A DNA stretch of 50,194 bases from a virus. The stretch lies in IMG/VR virus record IMGVR_UViG_3300024327_000008, positions 1 through 50,194 of that record; one strand, written 5' to 3'. The translations under genes were made by a program, and so were the position numbers. Under the pieces are notes generated by a model. That model was not told the origin of the DNA, did no database searches, and saw only the letters and a program-made list of their open reading frames with translations. Numbering within the stretch: the stretch's first letter is position 1; each line of letters opens with the position of its first letter. This document shows, in pieces, positions 1-14,412 of this stretch.

Positions 1-202
1 TATTTATAATTGAGTCGACCTGACCCATATTGTAATACGTTGATAAATCAGTTGGAGGACTTAACGTTACAATGTTAGAGTCCGTTTGTGATTTCGTATA
101 GTAATCACTTAAATCTGTTGGCGGAGATAGTTCTACTACCTTACCGTCGGTTTCTGACTTATTGTAAAAGTCAAATTCTGCTAATTGTCTTATTCTACTC
201 AT
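1..202 (-). CDS. Tail fibre protein, N-terminal part (runs off the window)
   Basis: Only the first 67 codons are present; the gene continues beyond base 1. The ATG at 202-200 overlaps the stop of the preceding gene as TAATG, so translation is probably coupled. After a short lead (MSRIRQLAEF) the protein contains a 23-residue unit twice, each with LSPPTDLS followed by YY and a Q-x-D-S motif. YYTKSQTDS-type segments are familiar from the shafts of phage tail fibres. Its place at the end of a long fibre array supports a fibre or fibre-tip role. The C-terminal receptor-binding part is not visible, so specificity cannot be guessed. Confidence 0.75.
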   Translation of the reverse strand, partial: MSRIRQLAEFDFYNKSETDGKVVELSPPTDLSDYYTKSQTDSNIVTLSPPTDLSTYYNMGQVDSIIN

Positions 203-480
203 TATATAGGCTTAGGATAAGCATCCTTAACTGCGTCTAAAGCATCATCAAGTGTTGTAGTACCGTTCTTTCTATCCCAGTAAGCCATATCAGCTTGCTC
301 TTCTAATGAAGGGTATTGTCTATCCCTTGTGTATTGATCAAGTTGCCATTCTAAAATGAGTCTTTGCTTTTCAGCCTCCAATTCAGAACTGGTCGCCTCA
401 ACACCCAAGTTCTGGGCTGCGACACCATCTGCGTCGAATGGACCTCCGTCTGGACCTGGCGCTGTTATTAGTTTTATCAT
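202..480 (-). CDS. Small fibre-assembly-chaperone-like protein
   Basis: A 92-residue protein starting at the ATG at 480, which overlaps the TAA of the upstream fibre gene. An in-frame start further upstream at 537 would run deep into that fibre gene and is rejected. The middle is an acidic helix (roughly residues 25-50). It is followed by a YPSLEEQADMAYWD segment and a C-terminal VKDAYPKP. Segments of this kind (R/Q-x-YPS-x-x-x-Q-x-D-M) are common in small phage proteins encoded directly after fibre genes, several of which are fibre-assembly chaperones. I infer that it helps fold or attach the fibre encoded at 480-1883. The family is recognised by motif only. Confidence 0.65.
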   Translation of the reverse strand: MIKLITAPGPDGGPFDADGVAAQNLGVEATSSELEAEKQRLILEWQLDQYTRDRQYPSLEEQADMAYWDRKNGTTTLDDALDAVKDAYPKPI

Positions 481-1883
481 TATCCTGCTCCTAAATATGT
501 AATTGTGATCATTGAATATGTGCCGCCATGGTGCCAAGTGTAACTATTGGTACTACCACTCTTGTAAACGCTAAAACCAACAAACTCCCCTGCCGTAAAT
601 TTATGAGCAAGGCTGAAGTTATGATCCATCCATTGTGTTCCGTAAGTGTGAGTATGGTGATATACCGCACCATTAATTCTATGATGGGCATAGTATCTAT
701 CGTTGTCGTGTGACATAGCGAAGTAATCTATCGAATATACTCCAGGAACATCAAATGTAACCGTATTTCCTGATACTGTTATGTAATTGGTATCAGGAGG
801 GGTTTCGAACCAATTCAATGTAATATCTGTCCAGACATTCGAACTTTGATTACTCGAGTTGTTATACCCCGCCATAACAACTTTTGGAGAATAATCTGTA
901 AATATAGCATCAGTCTCAGCCTTAGTATATCTATTACCCAAAGCTGTAGTTGTTGTAGATGCATAATTAGCATCATCTCCAAGAGCAGCAGCCAATTCAT
1001 TCAATGTATTTAGGTTAGCAGGGGCGGTATCAATAACAGCATTAACCGCGGTCGTTGCAGCACTTGAAGCACTTGAAGCACTTGAAGCTGCAGCACTAGC
1101 AGAACTTGATGCTTCACTAGCTTTAGTAGTTGATATACCTGCTTGGGTTGCAGCAGTATTGGCTGAAGCAGATGCTTCACTAGCTTTAGTGGTTGCAGTA
1201 CTTGCAGAAGATGCCGAAGCACTTGCCGAAGCACTTGATTCAGATGCCTTAGTGGTTGCAACACCTTCAGAGGCACTAGCAGCATTCTTACTTGCCAATG
1301 CATTATTTTCACTTACGCCTGCTGCAGTATTTTCAATTGCAGCTTTTGCACTCCAATGTTTAGCACTATATTTACCAGTTTCAACCGAAGTATCTTCAGC
1401 AGCATCTGCCCATTGACCAGCTTTAGTCTTATGTGAATTAGCAGCTGCAGCACTTGTTGCAGCATTCACCTCTGCAGTTTCAGATAATCCTTGGGCAACA
1501 ACAGAAGCATTCTTAGCCGTAATAGAATCACTTCTATTAGTTGAAGCAGATACATCCGCTGCAATTGAAGCATCTCTTGCCGCTTCAGCAGATGTCTGTG
1601 CTGCACTTGCCGCTGACTGAGCCGCTAATGCATCTGATTTAGCTGTTTGAGCATCAACCTTTGCAGTAGATGCCACATCTCTTGCAGTCTCTGCTAAGCT
1701 CTGTGCTGTTTGTGCCGATGTTTCAGCAATCTCTGCATTAGTCTTAGCTGTTTCAGCCGCTACCTGTGCTGAGTTAGCTTGGGTAATCTTACCATCCATA
1801 TCGGTAATTCTACCCGATACCGTATTAGTTAATCCCGTTGTTTGGGTAACTAAAGCATCTAAGGATTCTTGAATTGTAGGCAT
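480..1883 (-). CDS. Tail fibre: long coiled-coil shaft with C1q-like tip
   Basis: A 467-residue fibre. Residues about 10-290 are almost entirely Ala/Ser/Thr-rich heptads (SAxxAxxSAxxA), as in a trimeric coiled-coil shaft. A TLNELAAALGDDANY module follows, shared with other fibres here, and then a YTKAETD segment. The last ~130 residues are a beta-rich domain with a VTFDVPGVYSIDYFA segment, an FTAGEFVGFSVYKSG segment and an ending ITITYLG. This spacing resembles C1q/TNF-like jelly rolls, which trimerise and bind ligands; I infer a receptor-binding tip. AAAAAGGAGAA precedes the ATG at 1883. It lies directly after a short fibre-base gene and before a chaperone-like gene. The repeated codons give long open frames in other phases that are not genes. 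Confidence 0.8.
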   Translation of the reverse strand: MPTIQESLDALVTQTTGLTNTVSGRITDMDGKITQANSAQVAAETAKTNAEIAETSAQTAQSLAETARDVASTAKVDAQTAKSDALAAQSAASAAQTSAEAARDASIAADVSASTNRSDSITAKNASVVAQGLSETAEVNAATSAAAANSHKTKAGQWADAAEDTSVETGKYSAKHWSAKAAIENTAAGVSENNALASKNAASASEGVATTKASESSASASASASSASTATTKASEASASANTAATQAGISTTKASEASSSASAAASSASSASSAATTAVNAVIDTAPANLNTLNELAAALGDDANYASTTTTALGNRYTKAETDAIFTDYSPKVVMAGYNNSSNQSSNVWTDITLNWFETPPDTNYITVSGNTVTFDVPGVYSIDYFAMSHDNDRYYAHHRINGAVYHHTHTYGTQWMDHNFSLAHKFTAGEFVGFSVYKSGSTNSYTWHHGGTYSMITITYLGAG

Positions 1884-1898
1884 ATAATGTTCTCCTTT

Positions 1899-2360
1899 TT
1901 ATACGTGTTCTGTTATGTATTTGTCTTGCAAGTCAATGATAGACGCTGCCGTATTCATTGCTTGTATGTTTAAATTTGTGGCGTAATCTGGATCGTCGCC
2001 AAGGGAGTCAGCAATTTCTGCTAGTGTATCCATTGAGGCAGGAGCATTTCCGACTAATGCTGATATTTTAGAGTCAATAAAGGCTCCGATATTTGCCGTA
2101 TGTGTGGTACCATCTGAAGTATTAACAGTTAGGTCTCCCGAGGTCCCATTAAAGTTTATATTGTCAACTCCAGCAACTGCTGTAGTTGATATCGCTGTGA
2201 TCTTACCTTGGCGATTAACTGTAAGGACCGGTACAAGAGATGAAGAACCAAACGATTTGGTTTCTACGTCACCTGCATGGGCAACTAATTCTTTTACATT
2301 ACCTTCTTTGACCTTACCGTCAGATCCAAGTAGTTGGGAAAATAGTCTTGACTTACTCAT
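1899..2360 (-). CDS. Short fibre or fibre-base protein
   Basis: A 153-residue protein with an AAAGGAGA ribosome site before the ATG at 2360. The N-terminus (MSKSRLFSQLL, then DGKVKEGNVKELVAHAG) resembles the virion-anchoring ends of phage fibres. A beta-rich middle follows. The C-terminus carries the PASMDTLAEIADSLGDDPDYATN module that other fibres here carry in mid-protein. It then stops after YITEHV, only 15 bases before the next fibre gene. It looks like the proximal half of a fibre whose distal half is the 480-1883 product. Whether the two were once a single gene or assemble as separate subunits cannot be decided from the sequence. Confidence 0.7.
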   Translation of the reverse strand: MSKSRLFSQLLGSDGKVKEGNVKELVAHAGDVETKSFGSSSLVPVLTVNRQGKITAISTTAVAGVDNINFNGTSGDLTVNTSDGTTHTANIGAFIDSKISALVGNAPASMDTLAEIADSLGDDPDYATNLNIQAMNTAASIIDLQDKYITEHV

Positions 2361-2440
2361 CTATTGTTGTCTCCTTTCTTTATACAGTTATTTATAATGA
2401 TTTGAATTTGAATAGGGTATTTCACCCTCTTATGTTTTTC
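2361..2440 (-). promoter_or_regulatory. Intergenic leader with TATAAATA motif and small hairpin
   Basis: This 80-base gap lies between the halogenase stop and the next fibre gene. On the minus strand it holds a hairpin with arms AGGGT/ACCCT (2414-2428) that has no following T-run. It also holds TATAAATA (2389-2396), which matches the T4-type late promoter core, and then an AAAGGAGA ribosome site. No gp55-type sigma factor gene is visible here, so promoter function is unproven. It could equally be AT-rich leader sequence. Confidence 0.3.
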
Positions 2441-3793
2441 TTACCCTTTAAATCTTTTTAATGAGTTGCTCGCTTTGTTTTTATCAATGTGACCTAGTCC
2501 TGCCAAAATCCAATTCCACAACATGACACCTGAACACCCAAAATAATGCTCTAAAGTTAGGGCTGATGGAACAGATGTTTTGCTAATAGACAACATATAT
2601 TTAACTGTTTTTGTCCAAGTATCTCCGCTATTCACATGCCTCCAAAACTCTGTGTCATCTCTACCACCTGTGTAATGTACTACAAGAAAATCTCTAATGT
2701 CATCGTACAACTTTATCATTTCTTTGTTATAGTGATTGATTCTATATTGATTACATGTTTCTTTCTTGGTTTCTTGTAAGTGTTCCATAACAAAAGACAT
2801 TGCTTGGATGATAGTTGTATGTATAGATGTAGCTTCTAAAGGCTCTGCAAATGCGGCTGACAATCCTAAAGCTAGGCAGTTATTTTTCCATAAAACTTCT
2901 GAACGCCCTGAAGTGAACTTGAATTTTCTAAGAATTTCTACGTCACCAAACTTTGCTCTCAATTCCTCTTCAGCTTTAGCATCTGTTATAAACTTAGAGG
3001 AGTAAACATAACCACACCCAAATCTTTCTGTAGTTGGTATTTTCCAACACCACCCTGAATCCATTGCGGTGGCAGTTGTAACAGGCTCATAGTCGTCTGT
3101 AAGTGGCATCTGAAATGCTATTGCGCTATCAACAGGTAAGTTTTTCTCGTAAGACTCCCACTGAATATCCATAGCCCCACACAATACCCTTTTAAACCCA
3201 CTACAGTCTATAAAAAAATCACCTTCATGGGTGTTGTTGTCAGTATCTAATAAACTTATAATTTCACCGTTATCAGTTTTAACCCCATAAATCTCAGCAT
3301 CTATTACTTTAACACCTGCTTTTATAGCATGTTTTGCGAAAAATTCCCCAACTTTAAAAGCATCAAAGTGGTAGCTCACGTTAATAGGCTCTTTTGCTTC
3401 GTATTTCCTACCTATTTCAGATGCTAGATGGAATTTGTCACCATTTACTATTAGGTTCTCACAGAACTCTGTATCAGGGGATAATCCCGAAGTTGATGAG
3501 CCATCTAGTGGAGCAAAGTAAGAAGACCCGTCACCCGTCCAATTAACGTGTTTTATGCCCATCTTTGGTGTTACGTTGCAATATTCTATAAACTCCTTTA
3601 TGTCGATACCTATGTCAAACCATGTGCCCGATACAAAGTCATGCAACATCTGTGTTGCCCCCTCACCCGCACCAACAATGCCTATCTTCTTAGACTCTAT
3701 CAGAGTCACATTATGAGTTGAACCTTGGGTCTTTATAATAGACAAAGCCATTAGCCAACCCGCTGTTCCACCACCAACAATAACTATGTTCAT
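2441..3793 (-). CDS. FAD-dependent tryptophan-halogenase family protein
   Basis: A 450-residue flavin-dependent halogenase of the tryptophan halogenase (PrnA-like) family. These enzymes use FADH2, O2 and halide to make HOX, which is relayed to an active-site lysine and used to halogenate an electron-rich substrate. The sequence shows the FAD-binding GGGTAGW at residues 7-13, IGIVGAGEGAT at 37-47, the lysine motif IKHVNW with K81 (equivalent to PrnA K79), the family signature WCWKIP at 248-253, and EPLEATSI with E320 (equivalent to PrnA E346). No essential residue is missing and the frame is intact. Length is somewhat below the ~500-540 of classical tryptophan halogenases. A characterised cyanophage enzyme of this family, VirX1, prefers iodide. 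Substrate and halide here are unknown. No flavin reductase gene is visible, so the host would have to supply FADH2. The ATG lies just after the stop of a fibre-chaperone-like gene, inside the fibre array. Confidence 0.93.
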   Translation of the reverse strand: MNIVIVGGGTAGWLMALSIIKTQGSTHNVTLIESKKIGIVGAGEGATQMLHDFVSGTWFDIGIDIKEFIEYCNVTPKMGIKHVNWTGDGSSYFAPLDGSSTSGLSPDTEFCENLIVNGDKFHLASEIGRKYEAKEPINVSYHFDAFKVGEFFAKHAIKAGVKVIDAEIYGVKTDNGEIISLLDTDNNTHEGDFFIDCSGFKRVLCGAMDIQWESYEKNLPVDSAIAFQMPLTDDYEPVTTATAMDSGWCWKIPTTERFGCGYVYSSKFITDAKAEEELRAKFGDVEILRKFKFTSGRSEVLWKNNCLALGLSAAFAEPLEATSIHTTIIQAMSFVMEHLQETKKETCNQYRINHYNKEMIKLYDDIRDFLVVHYTGGRDDTEFWRHVNSGDTWTKTVKYMLSISKTSVPSALTLEHYFGCSGVMLWNWILAGLGHIDKNKASNSLKRFKG

Positions 3794-3796
3794 AAG

Positions 3797-4195
3797 CTAA
3801 GTAAAAGTATCTTCTTCGACAGCCACAGCACCCTGTAGTGGGGTGTCTAACTTTGCTATAAGCTTAGGAAATTTCTCTTTAATACTAACCCTTTCTTCTT
3901 GAATTTCATCTATAGCCGTTGAAGATAATCCGTCTAATTCAACCAACTTCTCCCAAAGAGCAACCACCAAAGAATCGGTGCTTGGATAAACGGGCTTTCT
4001 ATTACGAGAATGTTCCGTTTTATAACTATTATCTACGATATCTTGGTATTGCGTCTCAATTTCTGCGTCTGTTGGCGCAATATCTTTGTCAATCCAAATA
4101 ACCTCAGAATAACTAATAGCAGCATCAGGTATCTCCCACGCTTTGTCTTTGTAGTTTTTTTCTAAAACAACTCTTACTTTTATAATATCCACCAT
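3797..4195 (-). CDS. Small fibre-associated protein, probable assembly chaperone
   Basis: A 132-residue protein preceded by AAAGGAAAT. The N-terminal half is a short beta-rich stretch (IIKVRVVLEK, then SYSEVIWIDKDIAP). The C-terminal half is helical, with a PVYPSTDSLVVALWEKLVE segment similar in style to YPS segments in small genes that follow phage fibre genes. It lies directly downstream of the 4210-6693 fibre and three bases upstream of the halogenase. By position and composition I infer a chaperone or connector for that fibre. I do not recognise a named family with confidence. Confidence 0.65.
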   Translation of the reverse strand: MVDIIKVRVVLEKNYKDKAWEIPDAAISYSEVIWIDKDIAPTDAEIETQYQDIVDNSYKTEHSRNRKPVYPSTDSLVVALWEKLVELDGLSSTAIDEIQEERVSIKEKFPKLIAKLDTPLQGAVAVEEDTFT

Positions 4196-4209
4196 AATAT
4201 TTCCTTTTT

Positions 4210-6693
4210 TTATCTAACCCAAAGTCTTCCCGGTAGTGTGTTGACAACAGCAGACGTGTTCCACTCTCCATACCCACAAGACCATGTCCGTGGGGCGTTT
4301 CCTGCGCAACCACCGAAACCAAAACCTGAGTCAGAGCCGCCGTTAGAGGCGTTACTCGCCCCAAATGTATAACCCCCTTCGTCCATCGCTGCGCCAACCC
4401 TTGCTCCTGCCCGACCCACTGAACTTAGCGATGCGTTATCGGTGGTGCTGTTGGTAGAGGTATTAGCAAAACAGTTTATACCATATTTCTGAATGTGTCT
4501 CTCATGGCCTGTCTGTAGAGAGAAACTTGAACCTGAGTATATAAAGCCACTATCTATATATTGTATACCTGTATATGTTGGGTTTGTTGAATTGCACCCT
4601 AGCCCACCAAAGGCAGCACTAGAATTGTTTTGCATGGCGTTGTACATGGTTCTACTTGTAGTGTACACCATAATACAAGGCACGGTTCCGTTCATATCTA
4701 ACAAGACTCTGTTAAAGCTGTAGTAGTTCCATGATTTATATTTAGCCCATGAGCCACCTGTTATATTGGAGTCTGTATCGTTATTTGTTGTACTATTAGT
4801 CCAATACGAAGAGCCTGATGGCATATCACCCCTAGCGTGTACTTTTAAAACTAAAATCCAATGACTACTCTCATGCCAATCAAACTTTGTGTAAGCCTGA
4901 TATGTATTAGTTCCGTCTGTGTACCAATACATACCATTACTAGCAGATGAATTGTCTGCCCTAACATCTGCAGGGGTTGATGCAGGAGACCCTGAAGTTG
5001 TTCCCCTAGGTACGATAACAATACTCCACGAATACGCTTGGTCAGCAGTATCACCGTCTGTATCTGTAGCTCTAATAGTGAATGAATATGCTGTTGTACT
5101 TGCTACTTGACCCATAGTTCCTGAAATAACACCTGTTGAGGTATTAAGACTTAAACCTGAAGGTAAAGTACCACTTGCCAAGCTGTAAGCTGAGAAAGTA
5201 GAACCTGCAGTAAATGTAAAGTTTGTATCTACATCGTAAGACGCGGATGAACCTTCATTTACTGCTGAGATTGTTACTGTGCCACCTGTTGTAGTTGCAG
5301 CGACTGTGTTAATTGTTTGTTGGTAATTCTGAGTAGCTGTGCCACCTGAAGTATCAGTAGCTTTAATAGTCCAAGTATAATTAGTGTTACTTGATACATT
5401 TCCAGCGGTGCCTGTCAATGCTGAATTGCCTAGACTAGGTAACACACAGCCTGTAGGCATAGTTCCTAATACTAAGGTGTATGTTAATTGAGCATCAGTA
5501 TCTACATCATCTGTAAAATCAATACCTAGATTATATGAGAACGTACCACCTTCAGATAAAGCACCAATAGTTACTGTGCCACCTGTTGTAGCAGGATTTG
5601 CATTAGATACTAAGTTCCACTGGGTACCATTACTAATATAGAAAATATCATTATCAGACTTATAAAATAAAGAACCTTCAGGAGATACTGGGCTAGGTAG
5701 CGTAGTACCTACTACAACAGCATCAATACCAGTCAAAGCACTACCATCAATTGCAGGTAAAGCACCTGTCAGCATTGAAGCTGGGTGAGTCGCTGGATGT
5801 GTATAGTTGTTAGCACTTGTAGCTATGCCATCTAACTTAGTATTATCAGCAGTAGTAAAATTAACCTGAGTTAACCCACCATCGCCAACTGAATATGTAG
5901 TGTTAGTATCAGTAAACAAAGCTCCAACAGGAACTGCTGTTTCAACTAAAGGATGTGCAACATTAGATACTTTAGCATCATTCAATAGAACTCTAGTGTT
6001 TAATGCCTTACCTTGTGCTGCACTTAACGCCTCTGTTGTACTTGTACTTGTTAAAGTATTATTAACCGTTACTGTTGTGTCATCTAAAAATGCACTCATG
6101 TTAACATCAAATGATGTAGCATCACTTCGTGTAAATGTAGCAACACCGGTTGATCCGTTTAATGAACCAGAAGCAATATAAGCCGCATTGGTATCATCAA
6201 GGTATAAACTTAAATCAATATTAGTTGCCAAGCCATCTTCATCTGTATATGTTAATATGTTAGCAGCAACTGATAATGTTGTGGTAGTATCTGTATCTGT
6301 TGGTATTACCCAAGTGTTATCCCCTCTTAAGAATGTAGAGGTATTTGGTGTACCAGTAGCACTTAGTTGGGTAATACCAACTGTGTCATCACTAGGTATA
6401 CCAATATCTACATTCTGACCTTGGAATACACACCAGAAGGTTGATCCGGTTGCAGGAGCTGATGAGAATACAATGTTTGATCCTGAGACTAAGAAGCCTT
6501 CAGTACCTGTGTCATCAGGTTCTTGTAATACACCGTTAATGCTTACTAATAACTGTCCTGACTTAGCGGGGTTAATAGTTTGTGTTGCCGCTGTTAAAGC
6601 AAATGTTGTTAGTACACCGTTGAAGGAAGCACTTATGTCATCAACGATTTGATAATTACCAATGTTAGCTGGACTGTTTCCTATGTAAGGCAT
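4210..6693 (-). CDS. Large tail fibre with He_PIG repeats and fibrinogen-like tip
   Basis: An 827-residue fibre. The start is the ATG at 6693, which overlaps the preceding TAA and has CAGGAGAAG nine bases upstream; a longer frame from 6723 lacks this. The N-terminus MPYIGNSPAN is a fibre-base motif, also seen in altered form in the 8942-11815 product. A shaft follows, with DTNAAYIASGSLNGSTG, TSTSTTEALSA and NVAHPLVETAVPVGA segments, which are repeated in the 12145-14412 fibre. Two Ig-like repeats of He_PIG type come next (LPSGLSLNTSTGVISGT; IRATDTDGD). The last ~200 residues are Trp- and Gly-rich (FDWHESSHWILVLKV, KSWNYYSFNRVLLDM, GFGFGGCAG, final GRLWVR). They recall fibrinogen-related or intelectin-type lectin domains; that part is a tentative inference. 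Confidence 0.85.
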   Translation of the reverse strand: MPYIGNSPANIGNYQIVDDISASFNGVLTTFALTAATQTINPAKSGQLLVSINGVLQEPDDTGTEGFLVSGSNIVFSSAPATGSTFWCVFQGQNVDIGIPSDDTVGITQLSATGTPNTSTFLRGDNTWVIPTDTDTTTTLSVAANILTYTDEDGLATNIDLSLYLDDTNAAYIASGSLNGSTGVATFTRSDATSFDVNMSAFLDDTTVTVNNTLTSTSTTEALSAAQGKALNTRVLLNDAKVSNVAHPLVETAVPVGALFTDTNTTYSVGDGGLTQVNFTTADNTKLDGIATSANNYTHPATHPASMLTGALPAIDGSALTGIDAVVVGTTLPSPVSPEGSLFYKSDNDIFYISNGTQWNLVSNANPATTGGTVTIGALSEGGTFSYNLGIDFTDDVDTDAQLTYTLVLGTMPTGCVLPSLGNSALTGTAGNVSSNTNYTWTIKATDTSGGTATQNYQQTINTVAATTTGGTVTISAVNEGSSASYDVDTNFTFTAGSTFSAYSLASGTLPSGLSLNTSTGVISGTMGQVASTTAYSFTIRATDTDGDTADQAYSWSIVIVPRGTTSGSPASTPADVRADNSSASNGMYWYTDGTNTYQAYTKFDWHESSHWILVLKVHARGDMPSGSSYWTNSTTNNDTDSNITGGSWAKYKSWNYYSFNRVLLDMNGTVPCIMVYTTSRTMYNAMQNNSSAAFGGLGCNSTNPTYTGIQYIDSGFIYSGSSFSLQTGHERHIQKYGINCFANTSTNSTTDNASLSSVGRAGARVGAAMDEGGYTFGASNASNGGSDSGFGFGGCAGNAPRTWSCGYGEWNTSAVVNTLPGRLWVR

Positions 6694-7046
6694 TAGATTG
6701 CTTCTCCTGGTTTTATTGGCCAAATTACACTGAGAGGGTCAGTTTGTGTTGTTACATCACGCAATCCCTGTCTGTATATCTGATATTCTAATTTAATGTT
6801 GTCAGGAACATCAGCACCTTGAGTCCAATCAGACTCTTTTAATTTCAAATCTCTTTCATACCGGACATTATTCCAGTTTCCCTCTAATACAGCCGTTATG
6901 GCTTCTGCGTCTGACATGCCTAGAAATTCTTTCAGTGTTTGACCATAACCATCAATAGGGTTTCCCTCTGGGTCAAATTCAGGACATGGTATTAGCAAGT
7001 TAGGATTAAATGTGAATTTTTCGTTATTGTATATAAAATAAAACAT
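6693..7046 (-). CDS. Tail fibre assembly chaperone (Phage_tail_APC type)
   Basis: A 117-residue protein. Its C-terminal half has the hallmark order of the Phage_tail_APC family: RYERDLKLKESDWTQGAD, then LEYQIYRQGLRDVT, then a proline-rich end (VIWPIKPGE). Proteins of this family are encoded beside fibre genes and assist fibre folding or assembly. The N-terminal half (MFYFIYNNEKFTFNP) is not recognised. It sits between two fibre genes, 11 bases after one and overlapping the next by one base. It may serve either, though the fibre upstream (7058-8554) is the usual partner in such pairs. Confidence 0.75.
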   Translation of the reverse strand: MFYFIYNNEKFTFNPNLLIPCPEFDPEGNPIDGYGQTLKEFLGMSDAEAITAVLEGNWNNVRYERDLKLKESDWTQGADVPDNIKLEYQIYRQGLRDVTTQTDPLSVIWPIKPGEAI

Positions 7047-7057
7047 ATTAGACTCCT

Positions 7058-8554
7058 TTAGTATGTATATAAACTAGTCATATACATATTTGGTAAGTAA
7101 TTGTGTGCTGTTTGATCTAGATCTACTCTTACTCCTATACTATTACCGTAAGTATTAGATTTACGTATCTTCAAGACATGCCAGTTATTAGTTGAGTCCC
7201 ATGCCCACGGAGTTACTGCAAAGGAACTTGTACCCGTGTTATTCACCCCATCTAGTGACCATGTTTCTCCATAATTGCCTGCACCATTGTGGTTATAAGT
7301 AAATTCATATTTTTTGCGGCCAGCTTGATTCTGGTGAGAGTAAGCAGCACTTAGTATTATAGTACCACTCGTCCAAAAACTATTAGCAGGCATAATTATG
7401 TCAACTCCCTGATTGCCAATTCCATTGGTGAAATATGGGCTTTGGAAATATCTACTGCCAGATTCGGAATAGCCGCCGGTACCCATTGTTATATAGGGGG
7501 TGGCGTGCCTCATTCCAATACCGGAAGAAATATCCAATTGAGAAGATGAATTTCCACTAAATGAATTAGCAGTAACACTACCAGTAACATCAATACCAGT
7601 AGAGGTTGTTTCAAACTTTGTAGAATTATCGTGTCTTAGCTGGACTGAACCATTAGTATTAAAGTTAGCCATCGTTTTAGTTTCAGCGTGATTTCTTATC
7701 ATTACCCCAGTACCATCAGACGTTAAGACTAAATTACCTTGTGCTATATCTTTAATCAGACTATCAGTACCATCGTGATATATCTGTAAATCATCACTAG
7801 CACCAAACTTAGCCTTGACGTTATCACCTAGTGATACATCGCCAGTCATAGTGCCACCTGCTTTAGGTAATGCTGCATTAGCTGTAGCACCTTGAGCAGC
7901 AGTAGCATAATCAGTAGAATCAAAAGCTTTTACTTGAGTTAGATTAGTTACCTCAGAGTCCATCAAAGCACCTGCTGCAGTTACATTAGTTGTATCAGTA
8001 ACATTAGCACCAGCTTCAATACCGTCTAACTTAGTATTATCAGCAGTAGTAAAGTTCTTTTGAGTTAACCCACCATCTCCAACTGAATATGTAGTATTAG
8101 TATCTGTAAACAAAGCACCAGAAGGAACATTGGTTAAAACTTGTGAATCATCAACCTTACCTGCTAACGCAGTGGTCACTGTCGCTGCATAATTAGCATC
8201 ATCACCTAAGGCTGCTGCTAACTCGGTTAATGTATCTAAAGCTGCTGGGGCTGCTCCAATAACATTTGTAATCTGAGTATTAACATATGTTTCAGTTGTC
8301 TTACCATCAAGTAAACCTTGAAGACCTGTTACTTCTGAAACTGTATGAGCACTTGGGTGGGAATAGTTATTAGCATTATCAGCAACACCATCTAATTTAT
8401 TCTTATCAGCAGGGATCATTAAACCAGAAGCAATTGAAGATGCACCAGGAGTTGCCGCTAGTTTATCCTGTGATATGCTAGTGGTTGCACTGATGTCTTC
8501 ATTAGTGATAGTACCATCTTTGATACCACCAGTTGTTACTTTAGTTAATGCCAT
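7058..8554 (-). CDS. Tail fibre protein
   Basis: A 498-residue fibre with AAGGAGTAAA before the ATG at 8554. The N-terminus (MALTKVTTGGIKDGTIT, then ISQDKLA) is a form common in marine phage fibres. The shaft contains NNYSHPSAHTVSEVTGLQGLLDGK, TLTELAAALGDDANYA, a VLTNVPSGALFTDTNTTYS segment and a DDLQIYHDGTDSLI segment, typical of exchangeable fibre modules. The C-terminal ~160 residues (from about GIGMRHATPYITMG) form a Gly/Tyr/Asn-rich beta domain I cannot assign; it is the likely receptor-binding end. A chaperone of Phage_tail_APC type follows at once. Confidence 0.82.
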   Translation of the reverse strand: MALTKVTTGGIKDGTITNEDISATTSISQDKLAATPGASSIASGLMIPADKNKLDGVADNANNYSHPSAHTVSEVTGLQGLLDGKTTETYVNTQITNVIGAAPAALDTLTELAAALGDDANYAATVTTALAGKVDDSQVLTNVPSGALFTDTNTTYSVGDGGLTQKNFTTADNTKLDGIEAGANVTDTTNVTAAGALMDSEVTNLTQVKAFDSTDYATAAQGATANAALPKAGGTMTGDVSLGDNVKAKFGASDDLQIYHDGTDSLIKDIAQGNLVLTSDGTGVMIRNHAETKTMANFNTNGSVQLRHDNSTKFETTSTGIDVTGSVTANSFSGNSSSQLDISSGIGMRHATPYITMGTGGYSESGSRYFQSPYFTNGIGNQGVDIIMPANSFWTSGTIILSAAYSHQNQAGRKKYEFTYNHNGAGNYGETWSLDGVNNTGTSSFAVTPWAWDSTNNWHVLKIRKSNTYGNSIGVRVDLDQTAHNYLPNMYMTSLYTY

Positions 8555-8576
8555 TGGGGTTTACTCCTTATTGATC

Positions 8577-8584
8577 TATTTATA
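8577..8584 (-). promoter_or_regulatory. TATAAATA motif upstream of a fibre gene
   Basis: An exact TATAAATA on the minus strand in the 64-base gap before the 7058-8554 fibre gene, about 22 bases upstream of its ATG. It matches the T4-type late promoter core. A second intergenic copy lies at 2389-2396. The same octamer also occurs inside coding sequence in this AT-rich window, so the match alone is weak evidence. Confidence 0.25.
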
Positions 8585-8618
8585 CTTCTATTGCTACTTC
8601 CTGCCACGGTGTGATGCT

Positions 8619-8945
8619 TTAGTTGCCATCTGTTACTCCGTCTAATTTTTTAGACATTAAAGGTTTTTCTGAAAGAACTCTTTCTGCTTCTTTTAAATGC
8701 CATTCTCTATTTTGCGGACCATCAAATATCTTTGATTCAATCCAAGAAATAATCTGGTCTTTAGTTAAATCATCAAATTGAGTAAAACCAGAAGAAGGAG
8801 GATTCATATCTAATACATTGTTTACTTCGTAAAAGCTTGAACCATCACTAAAAATTTGTGTATAGTCAACTTTTCTTACTACATTTAAATTAGATTCATC
8901 GTTTTGAACAATTAAATCATTAATTTTATATTCTATAGTTATCAT
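8619..8945 (-). CDS. Small fibre-associated protein
   Basis: A 108-residue protein whose ATG overlaps the TGA of the upstream LamG-tipped fibre as ATGA. The N-terminal half is strand-rich (ITIEYKINDLIVQ, VRKVDYTQIFSDG). The C-terminal half is helical, with DLTKDQIISWIESKI. Proteins of this shape occur next to fibre genes in marine phages. I infer an assembly chaperone or adaptor for the 8942-11815 fibre. No named family is claimed. Confidence 0.65.
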   Translation of the reverse strand: MITIEYKINDLIVQNDESNLNVVRKVDYTQIFSDGSSFYEVNNVLDMNPPSSGFTQFDDLTKDQIISWIESKIFDGPQNREWHLKEAERVLSEKPLMSKKLDGVTDGN

Positions 8946-11815
8946 ATTCCGTATCTACCTCTTCCAGCATTAAAGTTTTGTTGGACTTCGGCCGAAGTCA
9001 AATTTTGTCCATAGAATTGCCATTCAGATCCATAGCCGTATAAACGATGGTTAACATTAATTGCCGCCGCTTGAAAAGTGGTGGAGGTTGTACCAGAAGA
9101 TGCTGATCCAGACTGAATTAACGAACCATTTACATATACCGCATAACTACTTCCATCAAAAGTTAAAACTTGATAATACCATTGTCCAGATGATAATTGA
9201 TGGCTAATTTCTCCACCTGTTCCAGTACCAATATAGAAATATACATTGCCTCCATCTTTGATCCCTTGATAAGTGTATCCTCCTCCTGCCTGGATTCCTT
9301 GCAATTGGAAACTTTCACCAGCTGGTTGTGTTGTACTGCTATAATATACCCACATGCCAAAAGCTCTTGCTCCTGCAGGAGCTGTAAAGGAAGAACTAAT
9401 ATAATCGCCATAACCATCAAATATCATATAGCCATTGTTTGAACTGCTATATGTAGGATTTCCTTGAATAGTTCCGTTATATCCGTTTCCGCTTATATCA
9501 TTCACTGTACTACCAGAACCAGAATAACTACTACCATTAGTCATATCCCAATGTAATAACAAATTTGATTTTATAATTCCATCAGAGCTTACATCTTGCC
9601 ACGTTGATCCGTCATAAAATTTTACTTTTTGACCAAAGCTATTATAATAAAGCTGTCCAGCTCTAGTTCCAGTAGGATCAGAAGCAGCCGATAATAAACC
9701 AAATGGCTTCTCAACATTAACTTCGGTATCGTCTAATACTAAAAACGTGTCTCGGCCATTGGTATTGTTACCTTTATTTGTGAACTTAGAAATTTCAAAT
9801 CCACCATCAGTAACTAACATACCATAGTTATTATTACCAGTTGAAGACCAATCTCCCGCACCTCTAGCTAATTTAATTCCAGAATAATATCCACCGAGTG
9901 AGTTTACGGTAATCCATTCGTGTTGATCAGCTGCATTTCCGACTTGTAAAGAAGCGCTTGGATCGTCTGTTCCAATACCAACGTTACCTGCTGAGGTGAT
10001 GCGCATACGTTCTTCAACTGCATCCTCTGCTATAACAACTCCTGTCTTGTTGACAAAGGCTATATCCCCACCCCACTTATGGAGTATACCTGAAGCACCA
10101 TATGAACTGTGCCCTGCCCTTACCGTAGGAGTGGTAGTGTTACCATTGAAATGTATATTTGTGCCACTGAGGCCAGCACCAGCGCCTACGCCATCTAGGG
10201 TTAGACCGAAGTTAGGGTTACCCACACTAACATCTCCAAAAACATCTAACTTAGAGCCAGGACTCGTAGTACCAATACCTAGCTTGCCACTAAGGTAGTT
10301 CTTATCTTCACCATTGATGTGTAAGCCATAAGCGTTTGTAACAGTTCCAGCCGATATGGCATAAGAGCCATAGAATAATTGGCCGTTTGTTATTGTGCCT
10401 GCATTACTATCAATATGGGATTCAAAGCCTCTTGCCGTTGAAATTGTACTAGAACCATTTGATTCTACTTCTCCAAAAACTCCTCGGATAGTTCCTACAT
10501 TACCAGTATGTCCTACGAGGGTGGCCGCTTTATTATATGACCCGTAGGCGGTGGTAACAGTACCAGTACCAGTTGTATCTATATAAGCAAATGTAGAAGA
10601 ACCGTAAAGATTGGTCACTGTACCTGCTGAGTTTCTAGCATATACTTGTGAGCTTATACCCTTTAATTCAGTAGTTGATCCTACTGAATCAAGCACGGAT
10701 TCTGTTACAAATCTACCACCATATACTAAATCACTATCACCCGTAGCTCTAGTATCAACATTAAGCCCATATACTCTATGTTCATTAGTTGTATCACCAC
10801 CTGTTGTACTTGAGTCTACATCAATAAACAAACCACCTTGTTCTCTATCTCCGCCCGTGGCAGAAACACCTGAGAAGTTACCATCAATGATCTGAGCGAA
10901 ATAATAGTCCAGCGCTGGATCAGTTATATTATGAACCAGTTTTAGTGGATATTGACTATTATCTGATCTAATATCTAATTTAGAAGATGGCGAGTTGGTG
11001 CCTATACCAACACTTCCCAATTCTTTAATAACCATTGTGGATATACCAGACCCGGCAGTACCGTTACCAATATAAGTGTCACCTGTATTATTCATTATAA
11101 TTGGATAATAGTTATTAGTTAAATCTCTTATATTTAAATTACCGCCACTTCCCAATTGCATAGACCATTCGTAATCGGCTTTTGATACTCCACCAGATCT
11201 TTTAATATTAATACCCGGAAAGTGATCACCAACTGCAGTAGATTTAATGTAACCTGATGAAGCTGTAGACACTTCTAAGTTCCCGGTGATTATTCCACCT
11301 GCGAGAGGTAGCTTAGTACCAATACTATTAGTTACTGTGGTGGCAAAGTTAGGATCATTACCTAAGGCCGCCGCTAATTCGTTTAATGTATCTAAAGTAG
11401 CTGGAGATGAAGCAACAAGAGCCGCCACCTGAGTATTAACATATGTCTCTGTTGTCTTACCATCAAGTAAACCTTGAAGACCTGTTACTTCAGAAACTGT
11501 ATGAGCAGCTGGATGACTATAATTATTAGCGCTATCGGCTATGCCGTCTAACTTAGTTGAATTTAACTTAGCGTCTGTAATAGCATTGTCTGCTATATCC
11601 GCTGTAGCGTGAGTAGTAGGGTGACTATAATTATTAGCGCTATCGGCTATGCCATCTAACTTAGTTGAATTTAACTTAGCATCGGTAATAGAATTATCTG
11701 CTATATCCGCTAGTTCAATCGAACCATCAACAATCTTAGATGCATCAATACTATTGGCTGGAATATCATCAATAGTAACCGGTGACGGGGTTGGAGTTCT
11801 ACCTACGTATGGCAT
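8942..11815 (-). CDS. Large tail fibre with LamG/ConA-like C-terminal domain
   Basis: A 957-residue fibre. The N-terminus MPYVGRTPTPSPVTIDDIPA is a fibre-base motif. A 36-residue unit (DAKLNSTKLDGIADSANNYS) then occurs twice in tandem, followed by VSEVTGLQGLLDGK and TLNELAAALGNDPNFA modules. The middle is a long beta-rich shaft with repeated GIGT motifs (SVGIGTNSPSSKLDIRSD, LGIGTTSPGSKLDVFG, NVGIGTDDPSASLQVG), as seen in many trimeric fibres. The last ~210 residues begin LLLHWDMTNGSSYSGSG and contain DGYGDYISS, FGMWVYYS and VLTFDGSSYAVYVNGSL. This matches a LamG_3/concanavalin-like sandwich and suggests glycan binding. It is followed by a small chaperone-like gene. Confidence 0.87.
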   Translation of the reverse strand: MPYVGRTPTPSPVTIDDIPANSIDASKIVDGSIELADIADNSITDAKLNSTKLDGIADSANNYSHPTTHATADIADNAITDAKLNSTKLDGIADSANNYSHPAAHTVSEVTGLQGLLDGKTTETYVNTQVAALVASSPATLDTLNELAAALGNDPNFATTVTNSIGTKLPLAGGIITGNLEVSTASSGYIKSTAVGDHFPGINIKRSGGVSKADYEWSMQLGSGGNLNIRDLTNNYYPIIMNNTGDTYIGNGTAGSGISTMVIKELGSVGIGTNSPSSKLDIRSDNSQYPLKLVHNITDPALDYYFAQIIDGNFSGVSATGGDREQGGLFIDVDSSTTGGDTTNEHRVYGLNVDTRATGDSDLVYGGRFVTESVLDSVGSTTELKGISSQVYARNSAGTVTNLYGSSTFAYIDTTGTGTVTTAYGSYNKAATLVGHTGNVGTIRGVFGEVESNGSSTISTARGFESHIDSNAGTITNGQLFYGSYAISAGTVTNAYGLHINGEDKNYLSGKLGIGTTSPGSKLDVFGDVSVGNPNFGLTLDGVGAGAGLSGTNIHFNGNTTTPTVRAGHSSYGASGILHKWGGDIAFVNKTGVVIAEDAVEERMRITSAGNVGIGTDDPSASLQVGNAADQHEWITVNSLGGYYSGIKLARGAGDWSSTGNNNYGMLVTDGGFEISKFTNKGNNTNGRDTFLVLDDTEVNVEKPFGLLSAASDPTGTRAGQLYYNSFGQKVKFYDGSTWQDVSSDGIIKSNLLLHWDMTNGSSYSGSGSTVNDISGNGYNGTIQGNPTYSSSNNGYMIFDGYGDYISSSFTAPAGARAFGMWVYYSSTTQPAGESFQLQGIQAGGGYTYQGIKDGGNVYFYIGTGTGGEISHQLSSGQWYYQVLTFDGSSYAVYVNGSLIQSGSASSGTTSTTFQAAAINVNHRLYGYGSEWQFYGQNLTSAEVQQNFNAGRGRYGI
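11513..11711 (-). repeat. Tandem duplication, 108-base period, in a fibre gene
   Basis: The stretch beginning gactataattattagcg at 11515 recurs at 11623, with few differences through tgctatatccgct (ends near 11603 and 11711). The period is 108 bases, that is 36 codons, so the frame is kept. It encodes two copies of a DAKLNSTKLDGIADSANNYS unit near the fibre base. High similarity between the copies suggests a recent duplication. Confidence 0.85.
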
Positions 11816-12144: not shown

Positions 12145-14412
12145 TTATCCTAATGCAATTGCCATCGCGACAGCTTCGGCCCTTATGTTATCTAATTCTG
12201 CTTGAAGTCCTGTAACCTCTGAAATACTATGGGCTGCAGGATGTGTATATATTGTATCAGTGAATACCGCTCCTACCGGGACTGCTGTTTCAACTAAAGG
12301 ATGTGCAACATTAGATACCTTGGCATCATTTAATGCAACTCTAGTTTCAAGACCATCAGCTAAACCTTTTAAGACTTTACCTTGATTAGCACTTAACGCT
12401 TCAGTTGTACTTGTACTTGTTAATGTATTGTTTACAGTAACACTCGTATCATCTAATAAAGCACTTAAATCAACTGTGAAAGTTGAAGCGTCACTTCTTG
12501 TGAACGTGGCAATACCAGTTGACCCATTTAAGGCACCACTAGCGATGTAAGCTAGGTTGGTGTCATCTAAGTACAGAGATAAATCTAAGTTTGTTGTTGC
12601 GCCTAATTCATCTACATAAGAAAGAATGTTAGTAGCAATAGATAGTGTTGTAGTGGTTTCAGTGTCTGTAAATACAGCACCAGAAGGTACATTAGTCAAC
12701 ACCTGTGAATCATCAACCTTACCATCTAAGGCTGTTTGTAATCCTGTTGTATCTGCTATTGCATGGGTATGTGCAAAGTCAGCAACAGCAAAGTTTAATT
12801 TGCCGGTAGTATCGTTATACGTAACAACAATATTTGTTTCGGTGTTGGCATCAACCATTGTACCAACGATATCTTCAATCTCTTCGGCATCAATGAAACC
12901 AACTTTATCCCAAGAAGATGTACTTCCATTATAAACTTCGGTTGAATTTAAATCTGTGTTCCATCTAAGGTAACCAGCCTCTGGAGAAGCATCTCTGTCC
13001 GCGGTAGATCCAGCAGGAATGATTGCGGAAGTGCCTGTATTATTAACAACAGAAGCTAAAGCAATAATCTTAATATGAATAATTGTTACTTCATCATCGA
13101 GATCAGCTGGATCTGTAAGAACAACATTTGTTCCATCGGTGTATGTAAAGTCAACAGAACCTAATAACTTAATACCATTAATGAATACTTCTAAGTTATC
13201 AACAGCCCTATTATATCCCCCATTAGGTATTACAAAGTCTGTTTGACCAGATGTAGCAACATATTCGTGTTCTGTAATGTCAGAACCATTAGCAAGGTTA
13301 AGGGCTTTGATGACTTCGATAGTGACGATGTCATCAACTAAAGCTGGATCAGATAGTACAACAGATGTACCAGAGGTTGCGGTGTAATCCACTTCAGGCA
13401 GTTTCATACCATTATAAAATACGTTTACATGGTCACTTAGTGTGTCATATAAAGCCGCAAACGTTGTATCCCCCGCAATGGTAATGTACTCGACAGTGAT
13501 AATTTCACTAGCACCCCCACCACCTCCTCCAGATACTGGGAACCACTGAGAAACTCCGGCAGAGTCTTGAATATATTTATAGAGTAAAGAGTCGTCGGTA
13601 TCCCACCACTCATCTCCTAAAGTAGGGTTCGCTGGTTGAGAAGTACTAAAGCTATTAGTATGCCCGTCCTCTAGACCTATGATTAATTGCTTTGGAGTAG
13701 TACTACTGTCGGTAGTAATAACAACGTTATTACCTGCCACAATTTGTAGACTTTCTTCTCCTGAAGGAGATAGTGTAGTTTGTCCAGCAATAAGCAGGTC
13801 TTTCCAATGAGAACCTAAAGATACCTTAACGGCTCCACCTGTTAAATCTGTGACATTAAAGCCAGTTCCATCGTCAAATCGTATCTCGGATACATCAGTT
13901 ATTACATTAGTACCACTAACATCTTTGACCGTTAATGTCGATGGAAGATTTTGCCAAGAAGTTGTAGTACCATTTGTTGATAAAAATTTACCACTATTAG
14001 ATGACTGTGCGGGAAGTCCTCCACCACTGGTAGCAAAAGTATGTCCTACATGTTCTGATATAGTGTCTGCAACAAATGTCTTGTTTGCAGCGTCGTATGA
14101 AATAGTAACATCATGAAAGTGGCTAGCAGCAGTACTAGAACGTACTGCTATAGTAGTTCCGTCCTTTATTAAATTGTAAGCTTGTTGTCCTGTAATTGAC
14201 ACAGAATGAACGTGCCCGTTAAAATTAGTTAGCTGGAATACTTCTCCAATACTAATTTCAGATATACTAGGGGTTACTCCGTCTGTTTGATGGATAAATA
14301 TTTTTCCATCATGCGTATTGAGCCCTATCTCCCCCAGCTCTAATTGAGTTGTAGAAGGTATATTGTGTTGAACGGCAGATCTAATGTGCTTAATCAGATT
14401 TTGTCTTGCCAT
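12145..14412 (-). CDS. Tail fibre with paired HxH module and repeated shaft modules
   Basis: A 755-residue fibre, first gene after the 14502-14530 promoter, with AGGAG before the ATG. Residues about 62-115 hold a module with HVHSVSIT and then HFHDVTISYD, related to one in the L-like tail-tip protein. In mid-protein come two hook-like segments about 75 residues apart, each with NVFYNGMKLPEVDY or VFINGIKLLGSVDF and then VVL-DPA-DD-VTI. The C-terminal third shares AYIASGALNGSTG, TSTSTTEALSA and NVAHPLVETAVPVGA with the 4210-6693 fibre. It ends in a helical ISEVTGLQAELDNIRAEA. Unlike its neighbours it has no obvious lectin-like tip, so it may be a proximal fibre segment. Confidence 0.82.
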   Translation of the reverse strand: MARQNLIKHIRSAVQHNIPSTTQLELGEIGLNTHDGKIFIHQTDGVTPSISEISIGEVFQLTNFNGHVHSVSITGQQAYNLIKDGTTIAVRSSTAASHFHDVTISYDAANKTFVADTISEHVGHTFATSGGGLPAQSSNSGKFLSTNGTTTSWQNLPSTLTVKDVSGTNVITDVSEIRFDDGTGFNVTDLTGGAVKVSLGSHWKDLLIAGQTTLSPSGEESLQIVAGNNVVITTDSSTTPKQLIIGLEDGHTNSFSTSQPANPTLGDEWWDTDDSLLYKYIQDSAGVSQWFPVSGGGGGGASEIITVEYITIAGDTTFAALYDTLSDHVNVFYNGMKLPEVDYTATSGTSVVLSDPALVDDIVTIEVIKALNLANGSDITEHEYVATSGQTDFVIPNGGYNRAVDNLEVFINGIKLLGSVDFTYTDGTNVVLTDPADLDDEVTIIHIKIIALASVVNNTGTSAIIPAGSTADRDASPEAGYLRWNTDLNSTEVYNGSTSSWDKVGFIDAEEIEDIVGTMVDANTETNIVVTYNDTTGKLNFAVADFAHTHAIADTTGLQTALDGKVDDSQVLTNVPSGAVFTDTETTTTLSIATNILSYVDELGATTNLDLSLYLDDTNLAYIASGALNGSTGIATFTRSDASTFTVDLSALLDDTSVTVNNTLTSTSTTEALSANQGKVLKGLADGLETRVALNDAKVSNVAHPLVETAVPVGAVFTDTIYTHPAAHSISEVTGLQAELDNIRAEAVAMAIALG

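Follow-up and report, generated by a model that had tools for sequence, protein, structure and literature searches.

A predicted flavin-dependent halogenase encoded in an exchangeable tail fibre cassette of a virus with a lambda-like late region

Published accounts of phage halogenases go back at least to 2010 (PMC2984593 and PMC3037559), and the described enzymes closest to the one considered here are PyrH, SttH, PrnA and RebH (PF04820), MibH, and VirX1 from cyanophage Syn10. PMC8269204 sets out the motifs Trp1 to Trp4 in its available text: groups A and B are characterised by Trp4, group B also by Trp3, and group C, which is without Trp3 and Trp4, comprises BrvH, MibH, VirX1 and others; KrmI, also a group C enzyme without Trp3 or Trp4, is nonetheless listed there with Trp regioselectivity. 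The accessible portions of the literature examined name no demonstrated physiological substrate of a phage halogenase, and the open-licence papers, within their accessible text, yielded neither a link of phage halogenases to fibres nor a report of a halogenated virion residue; PMC7283501 is about RNA-phage capsids chlorinated chemically with hypochlorous acid. For cyanophage S-CREM1, PMC9964418 describes a halogenase and ten 2OG oxygenases along with a virion proteome. With regard to genetic setting, the fibre regions of pelagimyophages are described in the available text of PMC7029224 as host recognition clusters with glycosyltransferases ('halogenase' has no match in its main text).

We analyzed a stretch of 50,194 nucleotides, referred to as the window, from a virus record whose late region resembles that of lambda and includes genes for terminase, portal, head, major tail protein, minor tail proteins, and J. 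An Rfam scan gave no match and a tRNA search found none. On the minus strand, an open reading frame at 2441-3793 starts with ATG and encodes 450 amino acids without an internal stop. Its product belongs to Pfam family PF04820 Trp_halogenase (residues 2-407, E 3.1e-97, 326.7 bits with a cut-off of 21) and matched PHROG 2928 'tryptophan halogenase' (E 3.9e-104). Its sequence relatives in the PDB are tryptophan halogenases (E down to 9.8e-65), VirX1 being more remote (5.9e-38). An AlphaFold (AF2) model, for which the protein and 45 viral relatives served as input, had a mean pLDDT of 95.2 and a pTM of 0.93. Foldseek matched the model to PyrH (E 2.6e-39; TM 0.83-0.89 to PyrH chains by query length), and VIA-align gave Z scores of 47.4 for SttH, 45.2 for PyrH, 45.1 for PrnA, 40.2 for MibH and 37.8 for VirX1, so that the predicted fold is that of PrnA and PyrH. 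The sequence-only reading had named a complete flavin-dependent halogenase at this position and had proposed the structural comparison with PrnA and VirX1; reading frame, Pfam and PHROG matches, and fold all agree with it. The gene thus bears every sign of encoding a working enzyme, its activity being a prediction.

Compared with PyrH, SttH, PrnA and RebH, the enzyme shares the fold (Z 40-47), the FAD motif, the catalytic Lys and Glu, and WxWxIP, but it is without Trp3 and Trp4, is shorter (450 aa in comparison to 511-550 aa in the PDB chains) and is only 30-32% identical in structural alignments. As announced from the letters, the GxGxxG motif (GGGTAG, residues 7-12), the WxWxIP signature (WCWKIP, residues 248-253) and E320 are all present. 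In an alignment of 46 viral sequences, E44, K77 and W248 were conserved throughout (46/46 each) and W250 in 44/46. The catalytic lysine had been placed at K81, which is a lysine in only 32/46 sequences; K77 is to be assigned instead, which aligns with K75 of PyrH in a sequence alignment counted by hand. K75 is the catalytic residue of PyrH. The catalytic Lys and Glu of the window enzyme are K77 and E320.

E320 is found in 39 of the 46 aligned viral sequences and is replaced by Gln in the other seven. A natural Gln for the catalytic Glu (EPLQ) was observed in the viral halogenases of loci L016, L035, L037, L045, L047, L054, L057, L004 and L005, and the halogenases of S-PM2 and Sf-CH3 likewise have Gln at this position. 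According to the available part of a review, a Glu to Gln change inactivated one tested halogenase, so some viral relatives may be altered in this respect, the window enzyme not being among them.

With regard to the substrate class, inspection of the alignments by eye showed that Trp1 reads ATQMLH and Trp2 APLDG, and that Trp3 and Trp4, the motifs which, in the available text of PMC8269204, mark the free-tryptophan halogenases of groups A and B, are both absent, as they are from group C enzymes. In the alignment to PDB sequences, AKEP of the window protein stands opposite QRAQ of PyrH, and YFGCSGVMLWN opposite YYHGFETYS. Free Trp is a less likely substrate because the Trp3 and Trp4 motifs are missing, although the motif test leaves room for it, since KrmI is listed with Trp regioselectivity. 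MibH (PDB 5UAO, entitled lanthipeptide tryptophan 5-halogenase) has a similar fold (Z 40.2), no Trp3 or Trp4, and at Trp2 the sequence APFDW, which comes closest to APLDG; as only a few residues are concerned, the Trp2 likeness is no more than suggestive. By its PDB title MibH comes from peptide biosynthesis, whereas no peptide cluster is visible around the window gene. VirX1 (6QGM) is likewise a viral flavin halogenase without Trp3 and Trp4, its gene also lies near structural-type genes and its fold is similar (Z 37.8), but it is just 26% identical in the structural alignment and belongs to a separate viral clade.

These features bear on a role as an auxiliary metabolic gene, in which the target halogenated during infection would be a small molecule of the host (an indole, phenol, pigment or signal, or the precursor of an antibiotic). 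Such a role is the usual view in the accessible text of papers on cyanophage prnA and would suit both the many small aromatics that VirX1 takes in vitro, as stated in the part of a review available, and KrmI, listed in PMC8269204 as a group C enzyme able to act on Trp. The absence of Trp3 and Trp4 from the window enzyme speaks against it, as do the window genes scanned, among which no biosynthetic partner was recognised, and the surroundings of the gene, where the hli-gene context of S-PM2 is not seen. We consider a metabolite role rather doubtful.

Relatives of the halogenase are held by 82 of 50,697 phage records, mostly cyanophages and none at 60% identity or more. An IMG/VR profile scan found at least 583 related stretches among 600 candidate stretches, so the statement that phage halogenases are rare does not hold. 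Among the best 80 of these at least 583 loci, 45 have two or more halogenase genes and 36 have directly adjacent ones. Bacterial relatives are also numerous (at least 543), which would be in line with a metabolite role; the best 80 of these at least 543 loci are 32-38% identical to the window halogenase. The proposed phylogeny of viral and bacterial halogenases was calculated with FastTree from 240 sequences. Of the best 80 loci from bacteria, nine for which the ORF caller gave no halogenase ORF were left out, and locus L009 was counted with the bacteria. Among the matches listed, the window halogenase falls into a virus-only set of 39 (support 95), its nearest listed relative being locus L014 (58%). 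VirX1 is located in a separate viral set of 38 (support 98), to which the window enzyme does not belong. The deeper order of the tree is unsure because of several long branches. Judged from its sequence, the enzyme is a member of a known family and represents a new viral lineage. A recent acquisition from a bacterium is unsupported, as identity reaches at most 38% for bacterial and 57% for viral relatives (best 80 each).

The halogenase gene is part of a run of minus-strand genes which extends from 14412 to the window end and comprises fibre-like genes, a PF16778 gene, small genes mostly of no known function, and the halogenase gene itself. The run begins with a fibre gene for 755 aa (12145-14412), followed by genes for a tail fibre of 957 aa with a ConA-like lectin domain (8942-11815; Laminin_G_3; Pfam and PHROG matches), a tail fibre of 498 aa (7058-8554; PHROG 24456, E 5e-91), a tail assembly chaperone-type protein (6693-7046; PF16778, E 3.6e-13), and a tail fibre of 827 aa counted from ATG (4210-6693), for which Pfam and PHROG matches indicate putative Ig and fibre-repeat domains and whose C-terminal part is aromatic. 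The longest ORF of the latter has 837 aa from TTG, with its end at 6723, and the protein had no match to PDB sequences. Directly upstream of the halogenase gene and separated from it by a 3-base gap is a gene for a 132-aa protein (3797-4195; PHROG 9114 of unknown function, E 4.8e-07). Downstream follow genes for a fibre-like protein of 153 aa (1899-2360; PHROG 8713 tail fiber, E 1.8e-11), which is the first one, and for a fibre-like protein of 467 aa with Ala-rich repeats (480-1883; PHROG scan and comparison with a sister record). All these genes are on the minus strand.

The fibre setting proposed in the sequence-only reading was therefore correct insofar as the halogenase gene lies inside a run of fibre-like genes. 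The chaperone-like gene, in contrast, is not beside it, since the PF16778 match (6693-7046) is separated from it by the large fibre gene, and the adjoining 132-aa protein has no chaperone match. For the latter, no Pfam match was found, the best PDB match had an E value of 0.43, and a strict pattern scan of IMG/VR found it in the sister record only; neither these searches nor PHROG gave a match that would make it a chaperone or an obvious substrate. The aromatic tip of the large fibre, which had been pointed out as a possible substrate, is real but no outlier: among 19 proteins compared, its densest 120 aa contain 17 Trp and Tyr residues, tied with the fibre at 8942-11815, and are richest in Trp (7 in comparison to at most 6 elsewhere). 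In the region 1-9000, 11 terminator-like hairpins were counted where 5.0 were expected, and a promoter scan found 21 sites where 26.8 were expected.

Four records cover a cassette boundary in this region, namely the window, the sister record IMG/VR 3300024258_000612 with locus L002, IMG/VR 3300024302_000014 (G024), and IMG/VR 3300025478_000017 (G031). The boundary lies between 13514 and 13515: from 13515 on the records are about 99.8% identical, and below it they differ. G024 is 99.8% identical to the window at 13515-35506 and 28506-49621, and G031 at 13515-34490; both part from the window at base 13515, within the fibre gene 12145-14412. Of the protein encoded there, the first 299 aa are kept and identical to those of allele B, and the remainder is different, with 12 of 176 positions equal in an ungapped comparison. 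The junction of allele A is present in the window and in the sister record (100% identity over 2,785 bases, 315 of them beyond the boundary), whereas G024 and G031 have the allele B junction, and an exact 30-base search of IMG/VR for the junctions found these three other records and no further one.

Beyond the boundary, G024 has 10.4 kb of other genes, whose products contain lectin-like, Mtd_N, Gly_rich_2, and C1q domains; one further product matches a tail fibre PHROG, and the small products have no known function. Short stretches of 63-591 bases in G024 still match window genes at 68-83%, as is to be expected from shared fibre modules. G031 initially runs along with G024 before the two diverge in turn (allele C), its part of the array amounting to 3.8 kb. 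A halogenase gene, which in allele A is found 9.7-11.1 kb from the boundary, is present neither in the 10.4 kb of array in G024 nor in the 3.8 kb in G031. The segment is replaced wholesale between backbones of about 99.8% identity, and the halogenase gene is carried in allele A of a hypervariable, exchangeable fibre cassette, which is a new genetic setting. As in the host recognition clusters of the pelagimyophages, a hypervariable fibre region with enzyme cargo is involved, but the pelagimyophages of PMC7029224, going by its available text, are T4-like, whereas the window phage has a lambda-like tail region. One allele B fibre (L191, 8409-9881) carries Mtd_N, the N-terminal domain of a major tropism determinant; no reverse transcriptase (PF00078), a candidate explanation of the variable cassette, was found in the three sister records.

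A gene that sits in a fibre segment exchanged between near-identical phages fits poorly with a metabolite role. It could also be a passenger: a mobile gene which ended up in a fibre region prone to recombination and is functionally unrelated to the fibres, or is no longer selected for. Fibre cassettes recombine, and cargo can travel with them. In the covered parts of alleles B and C, only fibre-like and small genes and no enzyme domain were recognised, viral halogenases occur in many different neighbourhoods, and Gln takes the place of the catalytic Glu in 7 of the 46 sequences aligned, all of which would be compatible with a passenger. We nevertheless think this quite improbable, as catalytic residues and fold of the window enzyme are intact and the virus-only clade of 39, among the matches listed, suggests long maintenance in viruses.

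The sister record is 99.9% identical to the window over 11,793 bases. The halogenase gene shows no difference, and the same is true for nearly everything else in the shared stretch; all ten differences fall into the fibre gene 480-1883 (L002:9911-11314), in codons 10-165 of the Ala-rich part, where gene conversion or another local diversification is possible. Fibre-like genes go on for about 5 kb beyond the window end, with products including a 749-aa protein with a Gly_rich_2 match, a 247-aa protein that appears collagen-like by eye, and a 393-aa protein for which no PHROG match was found. At about 8-19 kb from the halogenase gene, five radical-SAM matches were detected. One of these proteins resembles PDB 5WGG 'Radical SAM domain protein' (6.5e-08), which we take to be a peptide thioether maturase, and another resembles cytosylglucuronate decarboxylase, SkfB, and viperin. 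A PIG-L deacetylase is also present, together with a weak polysaccharide deacetylase match under the cut-off (E 0.00078). That no metabolic genes lie around the halogenase gene is hence true for the window genes scanned, but it does not extend to the sister record with its five radical-SAM matches and PIG-L deacetylase. The region past the fibre run (L194, 4201-15826) contains, besides radical-SAM genes and the PIG-L deacetylase gene, genes for a Peptidase_S74-domain protein and for a protein with both glycosyltransferase and radical-SAM matches.

Radical-SAM and deacetylase genes beyond the fibre run raise the idea that the halogenase takes part in remodelling of the envelope or surface, acting on an aromatic moiety of some surface component of the host, one possible purpose being the exclusion of superinfecting phages. 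The five radical-SAM matches, PIG-L, and weak polysaccharide deacetylase match (E 0.00078) within about 20 kb would fit this, as would the glycosyltransferases of the pelagimyophage clusters in the text of PMC7029224 available to us. However, the FAD motif starts at residue 7 and leaves no space for an N-terminal export signal, so the enzyme would need to encounter any surface target inside the cytosol, and we judge such remodelling to be quite unlikely. Radical-SAM proteins are no general companion of halogenases, either, as PF04055 was found in only 4 of 22 other halogenase records (three over the cut-off).

The neighbourhoods of viral halogenases were compared in 23 hand-chosen, halogenase-bearing virus records, mostly longer contigs, counting matches over the family cut-off, with PF13759 alone standing for 2OG-Fe(II) oxygenases; left out of the count were weaker matches, one additional fragment of a 2OG frame (G013), and two weak halogenase fragments (G006). 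PF13759 had 54 matches in 14 records, 45 of them within 5 kb of a halogenase gene (random placement: 15.8 expected, at most 28 in 5,000 simulations), and Gly_rich_2 had 18 matches in ten records, 12 of them within 5 kb (5.5 expected, at most 13 simulated), numbers to be read with the reservation that matches are not independent, as some records are kin, and that random placement makes a weak null, given the general tendency of phage accessory genes to cluster. Among 111 neighbour proteins picked from 235 and scanned, 18 and 5 matched two 2OG oxygenase PHROGs; several tail fibre PHROGs were found, and others were ferrochelatase, carbamoyltransferase, and 'endonuclease V' PHROGs. In Syn10, two halogenase genes lie side by side (L010, 7989-11094), and the second of them (9502-11094), whose product matches 6QGM across 530 aa, is the VirX1 gene. 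Gly_rich_2 proteins are encoded upstream and 2OG oxygenases downstream, each at a distance of a few genes; the window gene has neither a second halogenase gene beside it nor 2OG oxygenase genes nearby, and no PF13759 or PF13640 match was found in the window or the sister record.

Halogenase genes also lie within two genes of a fibre gene (L014, L022), of portal and head protease genes (L015), of a head closure gene (L017), of a terminase gene (HTVC008M), and of collagen-like genes (DSL-LC01), and in L031 a tail-sheath stabiliser gene is found across one gene from a halogenase pair. Non-structural neighbours are replication genes (L064), sugar-nucleotide genes (L031), and, in S-PM2 and Sf-CH3, hli genes and tRNAs.

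The swapping of the segment between near-identical phages and the nearness of relatives to 2OG oxygenases and glycine-rich structural proteins lend partial support to the proposal of a fibre- or cell-surface-linked role. Since the gene sits in an exchangeable cassette and viral halogenases are often found close to 2OG oxygenase and structural genes, we favour a virion protein as substrate over antibiotic or metabolite roles. By analogy to known family chemistry, a host flavin reductase would supply FADH2, which would react with O2 and halide to HOX; no flavin reductase (PF01613) was found in the three sister records. HOX would then travel to K77, and E320 would help to position or activate the aromatic substrate. 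The physiological substrate would be a Trp or Tyr side chain on a receptor-binding fibre or another virion protein encoded beside the halogenase, and its halogenation might tune fibre binding, stability, or host range. That a halogenase of a virus lineage, carried in allele A of the fibre cassette, acts on an aromatic side chain of a fibre or virion protein is plausible, and we put it forward tentatively. It is weakened by the adjoining fibres being only mildly rich in aromatic residues, by the many viral relatives with non-structural neighbours, and by the lack of a 2OG oxygenase in the window phage.

If it is true, enzymatic halogenation of viral proteins would be a new route for a virus to vary its receptor-binding surface. 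The viral relatives also make up a large collection of halogenases for which proteins are possible substrates. The cassette setting, together with the nearness to 2OG oxygenase and glycine-rich structural genes, makes the question directly testable on virion proteins. A broader idea, which we consider unlikely, is that marine phages carry tailoring sets (halogenases and 2OG-Fe(II) oxygenases, here radical-SAM proteins) that modify their own receptor-binding proteins and are swapped with the target fibre alleles, so that not only sequence but also side-chain chemistry would diversify host range.

Two further observations were made on the collected halogenase loci. L009 (MT835646.1), one of 94 loci, was deposited as Bacteriophage sp. 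from human faeces, although to the eye it resembles a contig of bacterial origin, carrying two halogenase genes and TonB-like genes of receptor size. After a multi-halogenase array, a small protein of 52-78 aa, in most cases of the form KMI ... VAGP, is encoded in 10 of the 18 loci inspected (L053, L058, L061, L062, L063, L066, L071, L072, L075, and L082).
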